The notes under the pieces are model-generated. The model had not been told where the DNA came from, ran no database searches, and saw only the letters and a list, made by a program, of their open reading frames with translations. From NCBI RefSeq assembly GCF_004194535.1, contig NZ_CP025781.1, positions 4,154,001 to 4,218,000 on the forward strand: a DNA stretch of 64,000 nucleotides. Reading direction: 5' to 3'. Position numbers and translations under genes: made by a program. Positions 39,329-45,294 of the stretch are shown here, piece by piece. Numbering within the stretch: the stretch's first letter is position 1; each line of letters begins with the position of its first letter. This DNA is from Iodobacter fluviatilis (lineage in GTDB: Bacteria > Pseudomonadota > Gammaproteobacteria > Burkholderiales > Chitinibacteraceae).

Positions 39329-40981
39329 ATGACTTGGACTCAGACATATGATCCATTGGGCAATATCGGCTTATCGGCACTAATTGCCGCGATTCCTATT
39401 ATCTTTTTCTTTTTAGCGCTAACGGTTTTCAGGCTTAAAGGGCATATTGCCGGTTTAGGCACCATTATCTCGACTTTAGCCGTCGCTTTATTCTTTTATA
39501 AAATGCCGATAGGAATGGCTTTAATGGCCACTTTTAATGGCATGTGGTATGGGCTATGGCCTATTTCATGGATTATTATCACGGCCGTATTTTTATACAA
39601 ATTATCGGTAAAATCTGGACAATTTGAGATTATCCGAGATTCAGTCATATCGGTGACTGACGACCAGCGTTTGCAGGTTATTTTAATTGGCTTTTCATTT
39701 GGAGCCTTTCTAGAAGGCTCGGCAGGCTTTGGCGCACCAGTGGCTATTACCGCTGGGATTTTGGTTGCTTTAGGTTTGCAGCCATTATATGCCGCAGGCT
39801 TATGTTTAATTGCCAATACTGCACCTGTGGCGTTTGGCGCATTGGGCATTCCTATTCTGGTTGCAGGAAAAACAACGGGAATTGACCCGATGCTGATTGG
39901 CATGATGGCCGGACGTCAATTGCCACTGCTCTCTATGTTTGTGCCATTTTTCCTCGTCTGGTTAATGGATGGCTACCGCGGCGTACGTCAAACCTGGCCT
40001 GCGGTATTGGTTGCCGGCCTGTCCTTTGCCCTTGCACAGTACTACACCTCAAACTATATCGGCCCAGAACTACCTGACATCACTTCAGCCTTGGTCAGCA
40101 TGCTGGCGCTTTCGGTATTCCTCAAATTTTGGCAACCCAAAGAGGCGTTTACTTTTGGCATTGATCGCTGCCAGCCCAGAAAAAAATCACCCCCAACCCA
40201 TTACAGCCTCAGCCAAATCCTGAAAGCATGGTCGCCCTTTATTGTCTTAACCATCATTGTCATTATCTGGAGCCTGCCGCAATTTAAAGCGCTGTTTGCC
40301 AAAGGCGGCGCTCTATACAGCTTGGTATTCAGTTTTCATGTGCCGGGGCTGGATAACCTAGTAATTAAAACCACCCCGATTGTCACTAGTGATACGCCCT
40401 ATGCTGCCGAGTATAAATTTGATCTGATTTCAGCCACAGGATCAGGCATTTTACTCGCAGCATTAATCACGATGGCCTTACTGCGTATCCGTATTAGCGA
40501 TGGTATCAGCGTCTTTGCAGAAACCTTGCAAGAGCTGCTCCGTCCGATATTTTCTATTGCCTGCGTGCTGGGCTTTGCTTATCTAGCCAATTATTCTGGT
40601 CTATCCTCCACCCTTGCGTTGGCATTGGCTTCCACTGGAAAGTTCTTCCCATTTTTTTCACCAGTACTGGGCTGGTTAGGCGTATTTTTAACCGGATCGG
40701 ACACCTCTAGCAACGCATTGTTTTCCAGTCTGCAATCCATTACCGCCCAACAAATTGGGGTGAGCGAAGTCTTGCTAGTCGCTGCCAATACCACCGGTGG
40801 CGTAACTGGAAAAATGATCTCCCCTCAATCCATCGCCGTAGCGTGCGCCGCAGTCGGGTTGGTTGGTCGCGAGTCAGATTTATTTCGCTTTACCATTAAA
40901 TGGAGTTTTATGTTTTTGCTACTACTCTGCATCATGACCTATATCCAAGCCTATTACCTGACCGGCATGATTCCAGGATGA
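39329..40981 (+). CDS. lldP: L-lactate permease
   Basis: Inner-membrane lactate/proton symporter of the LctP family, 550 residues with 12 or more hydrophobic segments. Family marks include [50 protein letters not shown] and [16 protein letters not shown]. It closes the lactate operon 78 bases after lldG; a GGAG site (AAGGAG) precedes the ATG. Terminated by the hairpin at 40994. Confidence 0.95.
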
Positions 40982-40993
40982 GTCTTTAATTAA

Positions 40994-41025
40994 AAAAGAG
41001 AAAACCAGAGATGGTTTTCTCTTTT
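40994..41025 (+). terminator. lldP terminator
   Basis: AAAAGAGAAAACCA (40994-41007) and TGGTTTTCTCTTTT (41012-41025) form a 14-bp stem with a GAGA tetraloop and a T-rich end. Confidence 0.85.
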
Positions 41026-41065
41026 AAGGCGCTATGCTCCGGATAAACTTAATTAAATAAAGAAA

Positions 41066-41142
41066 CGCTGATTGTTTTGTTAATCCCGTACAAAAACCCA
41101 GTATTTGGACTACCCCCAATACTGGGAACAAGCCTAATCAGC
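41066..41142. repeat. nested palindromic element
   Basis: CGCTGATT (41066-41073) pairs with AATCAGCG (41135-41142); inside it CCCAGTATT-TGG pairs with CCAATACTGGG (about 41098-41126). It looks like a REP-type or decayed insertion-sequence end. The interval 41026-41879 holds this, the repeat at 41315 and no gene that I can support. Confidence 0.5.
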
Positions 41143-41314
41143 GCATTACCAAAAATCCCCAACAAGACAACAGCGCGCTTTAGCCAATGCCTTACCATCT
41201 CTTTCCAGTTATGCACCACACCTCCACCTATTCATTTACTTAGGGACCAAAATTATCTGTTCAGGGATTAAGTCATATCACCTTTATCGTTAAAGACATT
41301 GAGCGCATGAATAA

Positions 41315-41404
41315 TAACTGGGGTCAGAGTAAAGTTAAATCTGCTTTCTCCGGCGCTGAGGGTATGAACCATAGTAGGATTTAAGTTTGCTCTAACCCCA
41401 GTTA
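41315..41404. repeat. GGGGTCAGA inverted-repeat element (REP-like)
   Basis: A 90-bp element with ~27-bp imperfect inverted ends: TAACTGGGGTCAGAGTAAAG at the left and CTCTAACCCCAGTTA at the right. Ends of this sort are typical of REP sequences linked to RAYT (Y1) transposases. A partial right-hand relative (AACTGGGGCCAGA) begins at 44091, so the P450/isocyanide pair lies between two such ends. Confidence 0.7.
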
Positions 41405-41879
41405 CTCATTGGCATAAAAAACACAACGCATTTCTAAAAAACAGAATTCTCGACTAAACAATTAAACGTCCACTTAACCCTTTAATTTCTTCAGCCTTGC
41501 ACCCCATGCGTGAGGGGCTTAAATCTATCCACTAAGCCCCACTGAAGGTCATCACCACAAGTCGCAACAGATGATCCCCCTGCCCCGCAAAAATACCGCA
41601 GAAGAAATAACTCAAGAAGACCTGCCCCATCACTCCATATTGCATTTGCTTGCAAAATATCCAATTCAAATGAAATTCACGCGAAATCTTGTATAAAACG
41701 TAAGGATTTACCACATTGTCTTCCGATTAATCTTATGTAAAATGTAAGTTTCAACCCATTTACTTTCCATCCTTTCATAAGTAAGACAGTCTGTCAGCGC
41801 TTAAATTGAATATAGCCATCACTTTACTATCAAGAGAACATTGTCGCTGGCTTGAAATCCAAATCGGGTAGCTGCCGCT

Positions 41880-43145
41880 TTGTTCGACCATACCATGTTG
41901 AAATTAAAAATGATCACGACTAAACCACTCTCGTTCTACGACCCTGCCTTCTATCAAAATCCTTATGCCAGCTTTCAACGGCTCATGGAGAAGGGCGAAA
42001 TCCACTACGTCAAGTTCCCCAGCGGAGTATGCGGCTGGCTAGTCACCGGTTACGATGCGGCGATGAAAACGCTCACGCACCCAAACATAGGTAAAAACCA
42101 CAAACTGGGCAATGCTCATTGGCGCTCACTCGCGTCAATCATGCCAGAGCCGCAGCACACCACCCTACAGTCGCACCTGTTACATCAGGATCCGCCCAGA
42201 CACACAGCTCTGCGCGCTTTAATCATGGAGGCGTTCTCCGCTTCGCGGATTGATCGATTTCGTGAGCGAATCGCGCTGATAGCACAGCGCTTGCTTGAGC
42301 CGCTCCAAAGAGCTGGGGAATGTGACTTGATCGCCGATTTTGCATCGCAACTGCCCTTGCTGGTATTGAGCGAAGTAATCGGGCTTTCTGACAAGCACCG
42401 CATACAATTCAAACCTGTCTGGTGTAAGGTAGTGCAGCCTGTTGGCCCTAACGACGTCGGGCGAGCAGCGTACATTGGATTATTAACTGAGTTGCAATCC
42501 TATATTGACACCGTCATTGTTGAGTCACGTGGCGGTGATTCCGATCGACTGATCGTTCAACTTATCGCCGCCTATGACGGGAAAAAGATAAGCCGTGACG
42601 AGCTCACTTCGGTGTTATTTCAATTACTGGTTGCTGGTCAGGAGCCGATGACCAATCAAATCGGCAATGCCATGCTGGCATTGCTGCAGCATCCCGAGCA
42701 ACTCAAACAAATACGGGAGGATTCAACACGTATTGACCGAGCAATGACCGAGTTGCTTCGGTACGATGGCGCGTTTGCATTAAGCACATGGCGATTTTTT
42801 ACCGAAACAACTCAATGGTTGGGCGCAACTGTTTTTGCGGGCGACTCGGTGATCGTCGGGCTCAACGCGGCCAATCACGATTCGGCGCAGTTCGGTTGTC
42901 CTCACAAGCTTGATTTTGCGCGTGAACCAAACAAGCCACTTTCATTTGGCTATGACCATCACTACTGCCCTGCCTCTGCATTAGCACGGTTGGAGCTCGA
43001 AGTCAGCATTCAAGCAATTTTAGAATACCTGCCCAACATCCAACTGGCCTGCACCGACAGAGAATTGCGCTGGATTAATGCGGTGTTGGCACGTGGACTG
43101 TTGGCACTGCCGGTGAGATATACTCTTGGAGCATCAAGATCATGA
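41880..43145 (+). CDS. cytochrome P450
   Basis: A soluble bacterial class-I-type P450 of 421 residues. The heme-binding loop is LSFGYDHHYCPASALARLEL with ligand Cys363; ExxR is Glu291-Arg294 (ELLR); the C-helix has DPPRHTALR. The I-helix oxygen-activating motif reads LLVAGQEPMTNQ (252-259), with Pro-Met where AG-x-E-T-T is usual, leaving one Thr. No reductase or ferredoxin gene is next to it. The stop overlaps the start of the isocyanide synthase (ATGA), so it almost surely acts on that product. An internal ATG (MLKLK at 41895, or MITTK) could be the true start; the substrate is unknown. Confidence 0.93.
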   Translation: MFDHTMLKLKMITTKPLSFYDPAFYQNPYASFQRLMEKGEIHYVKFPSGVCGWLVTGYDAAMKTLTHPNIGKNHKLGNAHWRSLASIMPEPQHTTLQSHLLHQDPPRHTALRALIMEAFSASRIDRFRERIALIAQRLLEPLQRAGECDLIADFASQLPLLVLSEVIGLSDKHRIQFKPVWCKVVQPVGPNDVGRAAYIGLLTELQSYIDTVIVESRGGDSDRLIVQLIAAYDGKKISRDELTSVLFQLLVAGQEPMTNQIGNAMLALLQHPEQLKQIREDSTRIDRAMTELLRYDGAFALSTWRFFTETTQWLGATVFAGDSVIVGLNAANHDSAQFGCPHKLDFAREPNKPLSFGYDHHYCPASALARLELEVSIQAILEYLPNIQLACTDRELRWINAVLARGLLALPVRYTLGASRS

Positions 43146-44080
43146 TACCTCCACTCAAACACGACTCCGTTGCCAACACAACCAAAGCCATTCTGAATAT
43201 CTTGCTACGGCACCGACGCGAACTTTATCCCAATGCGCGGCATCAATATTTACCGCAACAGGAACAGATACGCAGGTTGGTACAAACCGGCGAGACAATA
43301 CAACTGACATTGCCGGCATTTCCCTGCAAATCACCCAATTCCGACAAGGTGCTGGGTGATTTGCCAGATATGGCCGAACGCATGTCATTGCGGTTCTTAA
43401 AACAACTGTGCGATGAAATTGAAAAGGTTTATGTGGCTGGCGCTCGTGTGTTGATCTGTTCAGATGGTCATGTTTTTGGTGATCTGATCCAAGTGAATGA
43501 TTCCACGATTAATGGCTACACCGCTGGATTGATCGATATGATCAATACAGAGCAGATTTCATGCATCGACATATTCCAGTTAGGTCATGTATACCATCAA
43601 GTTGATTTTGATACGCAGCGCGCATTGCTTGTCGAAGAATGGGCGCGACCGCTTCCTGTTCTGCGCGAGGAAGTAACATCTAACGAGTACCAAAACAAAC
43701 TGTACCGCGGCATAACGCGATTCCTACTGGAGGATGCGTGTTTATCAGTCGGCATGAGCAAATCTGCCTTACAACGCCTTAGCAAGACACGAGCACTGGC
43801 CGTCATGCAGCGCTCGGAAGCGTGGGGCAATTTAATTGCGCATCATCACCCATGCACCGTGCGACTTTCAATTCATCCGCAACCGCCGGGTTCGGCCAAA
43901 TTAGGCATCATGCTGCTCAACGCCACCGATACTTGGGTAACCCCATGGCACGCAGTGCTTGTAGATAGTGGCAATAGTACTTTGTTGATGAAGCATCGCG
44001 AAGCGAAACAGATTGGCAATCTGGTCCGAGAGAATGGACGGCCCAGTCACTACGTCATTCCAAATGAGTATCGATGTTGA
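43142..44080 (+). CDS. PvcA/Dit1-family isocyanide synthase
   Basis: A 312-residue protein of the pyoverdine/dityrosine biosynthesis family. Members such as PvcA and IsnA turn the amino group of tyrosine or tryptophan into an isonitrile using ribulose-5-phosphate. Hallmarks here are FPCKSPNSDKVLGDLPDMAE (60-79), LICSDGHVFGDL (104-115), VRLSIHPQ (240-247) and TPWHAVLVD (267-275). The usual partner is an Fe(II)/2-oxoglutarate oxygenase (PvcB); here it is a P450, as in the yeast DIT1/DIT2 pair. Family assignment is strong; the amino acid used and product are unknown. Confidence 0.9.
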   Translation: MIPPLKHDSVANTTKAILNILLRHRRELYPNARHQYLPQQEQIRRLVQTGETIQLTLPAFPCKSPNSDKVLGDLPDMAERMSLRFLKQLCDEIEKVYVAGARVLICSDGHVFGDLIQVNDSTINGYTAGLIDMINTEQISCIDIFQLGHVYHQVDFDTQRALLVEEWARPLPVLREEVTSNEYQNKLYRGITRFLLEDACLSVGMSKSALQRLSKTRALAVMQRSEAWGNLIAHHHPCTVRLSIHPQPPGSAKLGIMLLNATDTWVTPWHAVLVDSGNSTLLMKHREAKQIGNLVRENGRPSHYVIPNEYRC

Positions 44081-44090
44081 TGCTTTAAAA

Positions 44091-44175
44091 ATAACTGGGG
44101 CCAGAAAAAACCTACAGAGTCAGTCTTAAAAAAACCTACAAGGTCAGGTCTTACATTTGACATGAAGCAATCAAT
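44091..44175. repeat. partial repeat ends after the isocyanide synthase gene
   Basis: AACTGGGGCCAGA (44091-44103) resembles the left end of the element at 41315. It is followed by AACCTACAAGGTCAGGTCTT and TACATTTGACATG (about 44133-44164), the left end of the ~100-bp family seen at 45156 and 48875. Decayed composite of two repeat types. Confidence 0.65.
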
Positions 44176-44307
44176 TAACCAATCAATTAATAACTGGCAC
44201 CTTCGGAGTAACAAAATTGACCACAGTCCATATGGCAATTCGCATGAGGCATAGTGCACCAAATGCCGCATAACCCGTCAGTGGAGAGGGGCTGCGCAAA
44301 AGCGCGC

Positions 44308-45144
44308 ATGCCTGAACAACCGAAATACATCCTAGGCTCTAGTGATTCGGAACGTGAGCGGTTAATCAGACAGAGTGCAGCGCACGAACCCGAGGCGGTC
44401 TGGCTGCTGGACCAAATCGGAGTGCAACCGGGCTGGCGCGCGGTCGACGTTGGATGCGGACCGCTTGGAATCCTCAACCTCCTCTCTGATCGGGTGGGTC
44501 CGAGTGGAGCGGTCGTAGGTTTGGACAACGAGCCGCGCATGCTGGAGATGGGGCGACATTCTGTTGCCGAACTCGGTCTGCAGAATGTGCAGCTAATGCT
44601 AGGGGAAGCGGCCTCAAGCGGTCTTCCGAGGTCATACTTCGATTTTGCCCACGCTCGCCTTGTGCTTATCAACGTGCCGAACCCCGAAGAGGTGCTCCGC
44701 GAGACGGCGGCACTCGTTCGTCCGGGGGGCGTGGTCGCTATTCAGGATGTCGATTGGATCTCCTGGACGTGCGAGCCACCTCATCCGAAATGGGATCGGC
44801 TGATTTCGATACTGACAGCGGTTCGACGCGCACGTGGGCTCGACGTTTTCATCGGCCGCCGCGTACCGGGTATGCTCCACAAATTGGGACTCGTCGATGT
44901 GCAGATGAAGGCGTTCGCACCAATATGGAGGTCCGGCGACCTGCATCAGAACCTCCCCATCGTCTTTGCTGGCATCCACAAGGAGCAGATTATCGAGGAC
45001 AGGCTGTGCACGGAAGACGAGCTCACCGACTTGATGCACGTCTTAAGCGATCACCTGAGCCATCGCGATACTTTCGTTGTCTACAGCCTCTTGTTCCAAA
45101 CCTGGGGCTTCAAGCCTGTGCACAATGAGCAATCCGCGTTATAG
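44308..45144 (+). CDS. SAM-dependent methyltransferase, G+C-rich
   Basis: A 278-residue class I methyltransferase: motif I VDVGCGPLGILNLL, acidic GLDNEPRML, FDFAHARLVLINVPN (motif IV) and LVRPGGVVAIQDVDW (motif VI). Resembles UbiE/small-molecule methylases. Its G+C content is clearly above the flanks (about two thirds in sampled lines), and it lies between repeats, which points to transfer. The start MPEQPKY is inferred; an earlier ATG at 44254 adds MPHNPSVERGCAKAR, a phrase typical of translated cassette-junction DNA. Whether it methylates the product of the adjacent P450/isocyanide genes is unknown; 228 bases and repeats separate them. Confidence 0.82.
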   Translation: MPEQPKYILGSSDSERERLIRQSAAHEPEAVWLLDQIGVQPGWRAVDVGCGPLGILNLLSDRVGPSGAVVGLDNEPRMLEMGRHSVAELGLQNVQLMLGEAASSGLPRSYFDFAHARLVLINVPNPEEVLRETAALVRPGGVVAIQDVDWISWTCEPPHPKWDRLISILTAVRRARGLDVFIGRRVPGMLHKLGLVDVQMKAFAPIWRSGDLHQNLPIVFAGIHKEQIIEDRLCTEDELTDLMHVLSDHLSHRDTFVVYSLLFQTWGFKPVHNEQSAL

Positions 45145-45155
45145 CGCTTAACATA

Positions 45156-45262
45156 GAACCTAAAGTGTCATGGCTTACATTTGACGAGAAGCTATCAATT
45201 CAATCTGATTTACAAACTACTGTACATTTTATCTGACGTAAAATGTAAGGCCTGACCCCGTT
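45156..45262. repeat. ~105-bp inverted-repeat element, family 2
   Basis: Starts AACCTAAAGTGTCATGGCTT, TACATTTGAC and ends GTAAAATGTAAGGCCTGACC, CC. Ends are imperfect inverted repeats. Closely related to the copy at 48875-48978 and to partial copies at 44133 and 49476. Confidence 0.75.
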
Positions 45263-45294
45263 GCTCCCTCTGAATTCAGCATAGGCACGAAGGC

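Follow-up and report, generated by a model that had tools for sequence, protein, structure and literature searches.

A cytochrome P450 gene and an isocyanide synthase (ICS) gene that overlap by four bases form a compact pair in Iodobacter fluviatilis, and comparison with homologous loci shows it to be a reduced version, probably acquired by transfer, of a pathway known from actinobacteria rather than a system of a new kind. The best explanation, which we hold with moderate confidence, is a horizontally acquired, reduced operon of the hazimycin type that would make desamido-hazimycin. The window, that is the whole stretch of DNA that was analysed, comprises 64,000 nucleotides (contig NZ_CP025781.1, positions 4,154,001 to 4,218,000), and all coordinates below refer to it. 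The features are as follows.

41026..41909, plus strand: spacer of higher AT content separating lctP from the P450 gene; it carries dispersed palindromic repeats, and at its left edge synteny with congener G003 stops
41910..43145, plus strand: cytochrome P450 of the hazimycin-cassette subfamily, probable phenol-coupling enzyme (PF00067; in a clade with ICS-linked P450s)
43142..43145, plus strand: ATGA overlap of the P450 stop and the ICS start, four bases
43142..44080, plus strand: isocyanide synthase (ICS; isonitrile synthase) of the PvcA/Dit1 family (PF05141, full-length ORF)
44082..44195, no strand assigned: dispersed repeat elements (TAACTGGGGCCAG..., GGTCAGGTCTTACATTTGAC) between the ICS and methyltransferase genes
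44254..45144, plus strand: class I SAM methyltransferase (Methyltransf_31/11), perhaps the third enzyme of the pathway, though uncertainly so

The P450 frame is full-length and open from 41880 to 43145 on the plus strand. Its start is probably the ATG at 41910 and not the TTG at 41880, since the resulting N-terminus (MITTKP...) aligns with those of the homologues (MTIQEP...). Open reading frames and Pfam matches (p450, PF00067, 3.7e-13; DIT1_PvcA, PF05141, 7.5e-74, profile positions 1-266 of 273) agree with the sequence-only reading, which had recognised a P450 and a PvcA/Dit1-type ICS overlapping in ATGA. It had also called them fused in an operon: the genes are indeed adjacent and overlapping, but they do not encode a fusion protein. 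Translational coupling via the ATGA is likely; the equivalent overlap in the Pseudonocardia cassette described below is GTGA. A scan for promoters and terminators gave counts no higher than in shuffled sequences. Searches of the whole genome found one ICS and one P450, both of them the genes of this pair.

The ICS retains all 40 columns that are invariant across the 16 other rows compared. Its closest NCBIfam model is TyIsonSynPvcA (L-tyrosine isonitrile synthase PvcA), with a score far under the model cut-off, and 9dhm, 9dh4 and 3e59 are related solved structures. L-tyrosine is the probable substrate, judged from these family relationships. The best plasmid relatives in tblastn searches were from Streptomyces and Embleya (44-48% identity), a single-protein scan of genome contigs added one distant Pseudomonas ICS, and viral contigs held no relative. 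In the ICS tree the window protein branches off between the actinobacterial rows and the remaining ones (support 89/92); it is nearest to the actinobacterial rows by path and by identity, although it lies outside their group. This placement, with support of only 89/92, is a point against our best explanation.

The P450 gave a clearer placement. Its plasmid relatives in Streptomyces and Embleya, encoded directly upstream of ICS genes, are 49-52% identical (tblastn), and identity drops from 48% in Pseudonocardia to 36% beyond ICS-linked loci. In the tree it clusters with five cassette P450s from Streptomyces, Embleya and Pseudonocardia (support 100/99). The actinobacterial cassettes seen here all come from plasmid records. 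The annotations of Streptomyces melanogenes NBC_00668 and Streptomyces NBC_00060 both list three ABC genes of the iron type, then MFS, asnB, P450 and ICS, and Embleya NBC_00888 has a complete asnB ahead of its P450. Embleya NBC_00896 (L010:6094-7824) retains only some 137 N-terminal residues of AsnB, which read in frame into the P450, and farther downstream the opposite strand carries close homologues of the ABC genes; this is a further cassette copy that seems to have lost amidation, or a fusion. On plasmid pLS2-1 of Pseudonocardia HH130630-07 (L015, L017) the order asnB-P450-ICS is still visible: of asnB only the end is left, adjoining a transposase; the ICS breaks off behind its N-terminus, its remainder being found about 42 kb away; and IS5-type transposases lie near both ICS parts. 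Thus asnB, whole or as a fragment, is found upstream in the actinobacterial cassettes, and iron-type ABC genes in most. Among the sequences compared, the pairing of P450 and ICS is not a matter of chance, since the same two subfamilies adjoin in Streptomyces, Embleya and, in broken form, Pseudonocardia.

Hazimycin, a copper-binding antibiotic, is a diamide with two isocyanide groups that derives from two tyrosines. A cassette of ICS, P450 for phenol coupling, AsnB for amide formation and transporters fits such a product, and Matsuda et al. reportedly described hazimycin biosynthesis, with hazimycins as actinobacterial chalkophores, in 2024 (J Antibiot 77:228). The actinobacterial asnB-P450-ICS cassette is very probably the hazimycin cassette; we infer this from the structure of hazimycin and its copper binding. 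The paper on hazimycin biosynthesis and actinobacterial chalkophores is reference 25 of PMC11085572. The sequence-only reading had called the pair the best candidate in the window for an undescribed system, which is overstated in view of a homologous actinobacterial cassette with about 44-52% identity and the same gene order. As this cassette is very probably that of hazimycin, it comes in large part to the characterised homologous pair that would count against the claim; what survives of it is a possibly different end product.

Such a product may arise since the window copy lacks asnB and the transporters. There is no asnB near the pair, and of the two Asn_synthase matches in the genome one is short and weak; the other is full-length, shares 26% identity with the AsnB of the cassette, and adjoins an NRPS-like adenylation ORF. 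These asparagine-synthase-like and adenylation ORFs, at about 3.53 Mb of the genome (C1), form a separate possible metabolite locus. The cassette ABC importer and MFS exporter gave zero matches in the window, and the cassette substrate-binding protein matched the rest of the genome only partially, at 20 bits. Apart from a lactate permease (39329-40981), which belongs with the lutABC genes, the genes scanned from 26.7 to 59.1 kb bear out the earlier observation that no NRPS, PKS or transporter lies near. That the pair has neither transporter nor regulator is a point against our best explanation.

A two-enzyme route from tyrosine is plausible. By family, the ICS would take up a carbon from ribulose-5-phosphate onto the L-tyrosine amino group to give 2-isocyano-3-(4-hydroxyphenyl)propanoate. 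The P450, going by its subfamily and the structure of hazimycin, would then couple two phenol rings to a dityrosine-like di-isocyanide, with electrons supplied by general cellular redox partners. The product would be expected to keep free carboxylates (desamido-hazimycin) because the asnB amidotransferase is missing, and its hydrolysis would yield N,N'-bisformyl-dityrosine. Its role might be copper binding or antimicrobial action, exerted without a dedicated transporter. If active, the pair would demonstrate that a copper-binding isocyanide pathway can, in its core, function in non-actinobacterial hosts and dispense with amidation and transport genes. It would also offer an easily expressed two-gene system in which to study P450 phenol coupling of isocyanides and how far this resembles yeast spore-wall dityrosine.

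The activity of the P450 calls for caution. The haem-ligand cysteine (Cys363) and the ExxR motif (ELLR 291-294) are present, and 17 of 19 invariants are kept, the haem Cys included. The helix I of the subfamily reads AGQEP(V/M)TNQ, with Pro at the usual Thr position, a feature that might be better suited to coupling than to hydroxylation. The haem loop, however, is FGYDHHYCPA: four residues before the Cys, where FxxGxxxC calls for Gly359, Asp359 (GAC) was found, and all 12 other P450s, from all clades compared, have Gly there. In addition, residue 366 is Ser, and Ala in the compared P450s. Asp359 may impair or alter activity, and its absence from the 12 other P450s is a point against our best explanation. 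The pair could accordingly be read as a decaying remnant of a hazimycin-type cassette, stripped of asnB and transporters, with an inactive P450 and at most a monomeric tyrosine isocyanide as product. The change from Gly to Asp is one base away (GAC/GGC) and comes together with A366S, asnB, MFS and ABC genes are missing, and related cassettes do decay, as the Pseudonocardia locus split by insertion sequences and the shortened AsnB of Embleya NBC_00896 illustrate. Against this, both frames are fully open with an intact overlap, and the full set of ICS invariants and nearly all those of the P450 have been kept, so that we regard a remnant as rather unlikely.

Acquisition of the pair by horizontal transfer is likely, given its absence from congeners, the end of synteny, the bounding repeats and its atypical codon use. 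The ICS is absent from all eight congeners searched. Detailed synteny was compared with one of them, G003, in which the lldR-lutABC-lctP block matches at 80% identity as far as position 41025 of the window, where the alignment ends; lctP is followed there by a different gene, a glutamine synthetase by sequence. Dispersed palindromic repeats (TAACTGGGGTCAG..., GGTCAGGTCTTACATTTGAC...) at 41313-41619, 44122-44195 and 45155-45266 flank the pair and the methyltransferase gene, and occur in dozens of copies in the genome itself and in congeners. They recall REP/RAYT-type elements, and the genome has five Y1_Tnp genes. Integron attC sites were considered for these repeats and rejected by eye because of the near-perfect palindrome TAACTGGGGT/ACCCCAGTTA. 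Codon use correlates with the pool of window genes at 0.29 for the P450, 0.17 for the methyltransferase and 0.58 for the ICS, and is thus atypical for the first two and less so for the ICS. Loss from all congeners would be an alternative to transfer, but a less economical one.

To place the pair among other bacterial ICS loci, about 1,270 genome searches were made around the host, with some genomes drawn repeatedly, which yielded nine further ICS-bearing genomes, the ninth a weak match. This type of P450 was found in none of the eight loci opened. Four of them, from other proteobacteria (L056, L057, L058, L060), carry ICS, a TauD dioxygenase and a P450 of another clade; two (L053, L054) combine ICS, dioxygenase and glycosyltransferase in a rhabduscin-like manner; one (L059) has a second ICS-like gene, and one (L055) neither dioxygenase nor P450. 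The four loci with a P450 are conserved, and a gene for a LysR-like regulator lies near each of them. Since half of the opened loci carry a P450, finding one close to an ICS in bacteria is nothing unusual by itself; by gene content, the window is marked by the P450 subfamily and the absence of dioxygenase and asnB.

The sequence-only reading had rightly noted that no PvcB-type dioxygenase lies beside the ICS: no TauD/PvcB-type gene was found there, and a PvcB query, run without a positive control, had zero matches in the genome. The P450 might therefore take the place of PvcB and oxidise the monomer to a vinyl isonitrile or a similar monomer, either through decarboxylating desaturation or through hydroxylation. 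The P450 clade, however, is tied to the asnB-P450-ICS cassette, the presumed product of which is a saturated amide dimer, and the P450s of the loci with ICS and dioxygenase fall in another clade, which makes this replacement clearly unlikely.

The methyltransferase gene could belong to the pathway. It starts 174 bp downstream of the ICS on the same strand and, like the pair, has no orthologue in the eight congeners (matches of at most 35% over short stretches, one of 38%). A three-gene pathway in which the methyltransferase stands in for AsnB and the di-isocyanide is methylated on its carboxylates or phenols is nevertheless improbable: repeat elements separate it from the ICS, its GC3 is 0.67 versus 0.50-0.55 for the pair, and it has no match in the actinobacterial cassettes examined, while its closest plasmid relative (45%, Mesorhizobium) has no P450 or ICS beside it. 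More broadly, a minimal pathway of two or three genes (ICS, P450 and perhaps the methyltransferase) leading to a new free-acid or methylated dityrosine di-isocyanide, with a P450 of non-canonical haem-loop Asp, is a doubtful proposition.

A structural use as in yeast, with N,N'-bisformyl-dityrosine, formed from the product by hydrolysis, becoming part of the cell envelope, would fit the same two enzyme classes and the ready hydrolysis of isocyanides to formamides (PMC7345447), but is very improbable, as the leading PDB matches of the P450 are all bacterial P450s (e.g. PikC), its nearest relatives belong to a metabolite cassette with transporters, and no envelope-assembly gene adjoins the pair among the genes scanned from 26.7 to 59.1 kb.

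Compared with known systems, the reduced hazimycin-type operon that we favour shares with PvcA/PvcB and IsnA/IsnB (paerucumarin, rhabduscin) the ICS family and the probable first step; those systems have a TauD-type dioxygenase partner, as in L053 and L054, whereas the window pair has none. In the fungal xan cluster a tyrosine isocyanide unit is likewise combined with a P450, XanG, for which dimerisation of this tyrosine-derived unit of xanthocillin has been proposed (PMC5974471), but XanB has a dioxygenase domain leading to the vinyl isocyanide, which the pair lacks. The earlier comparison with yeast DIT1/DIT2 is reasonable as logic, since two genes only encode the same enzyme classes, an ICS-family enzyme and a P450 coupling tyrosine-derived units. 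The yeast genes are divergent, however, the window P450 is of bacterial type, and Dit1, which together with Dit2 leads to dityrosine, reportedly yields N-formyl-tyrosine and not an isocyanide (PMC7345447). The proteobacterial loci L056, L057, L058 and L060 also unite ICS and P450, yet contain a dioxygenase, and their P450s are only about 24-25% identical to that of the window. The hazimycin-type cassette, for which composition was taken from loci L009 and L011, differs in its asnB, MFS and iron-type ABC genes, its actinomycete hosts and the Gly at the haem-loop position of Asp359. It agrees with the window in having the P450 followed directly by the ICS on one strand, with 49-52% and 44-48% identity, respectively, and in the common helix-I motif AGQEP(V/M)TNQ.
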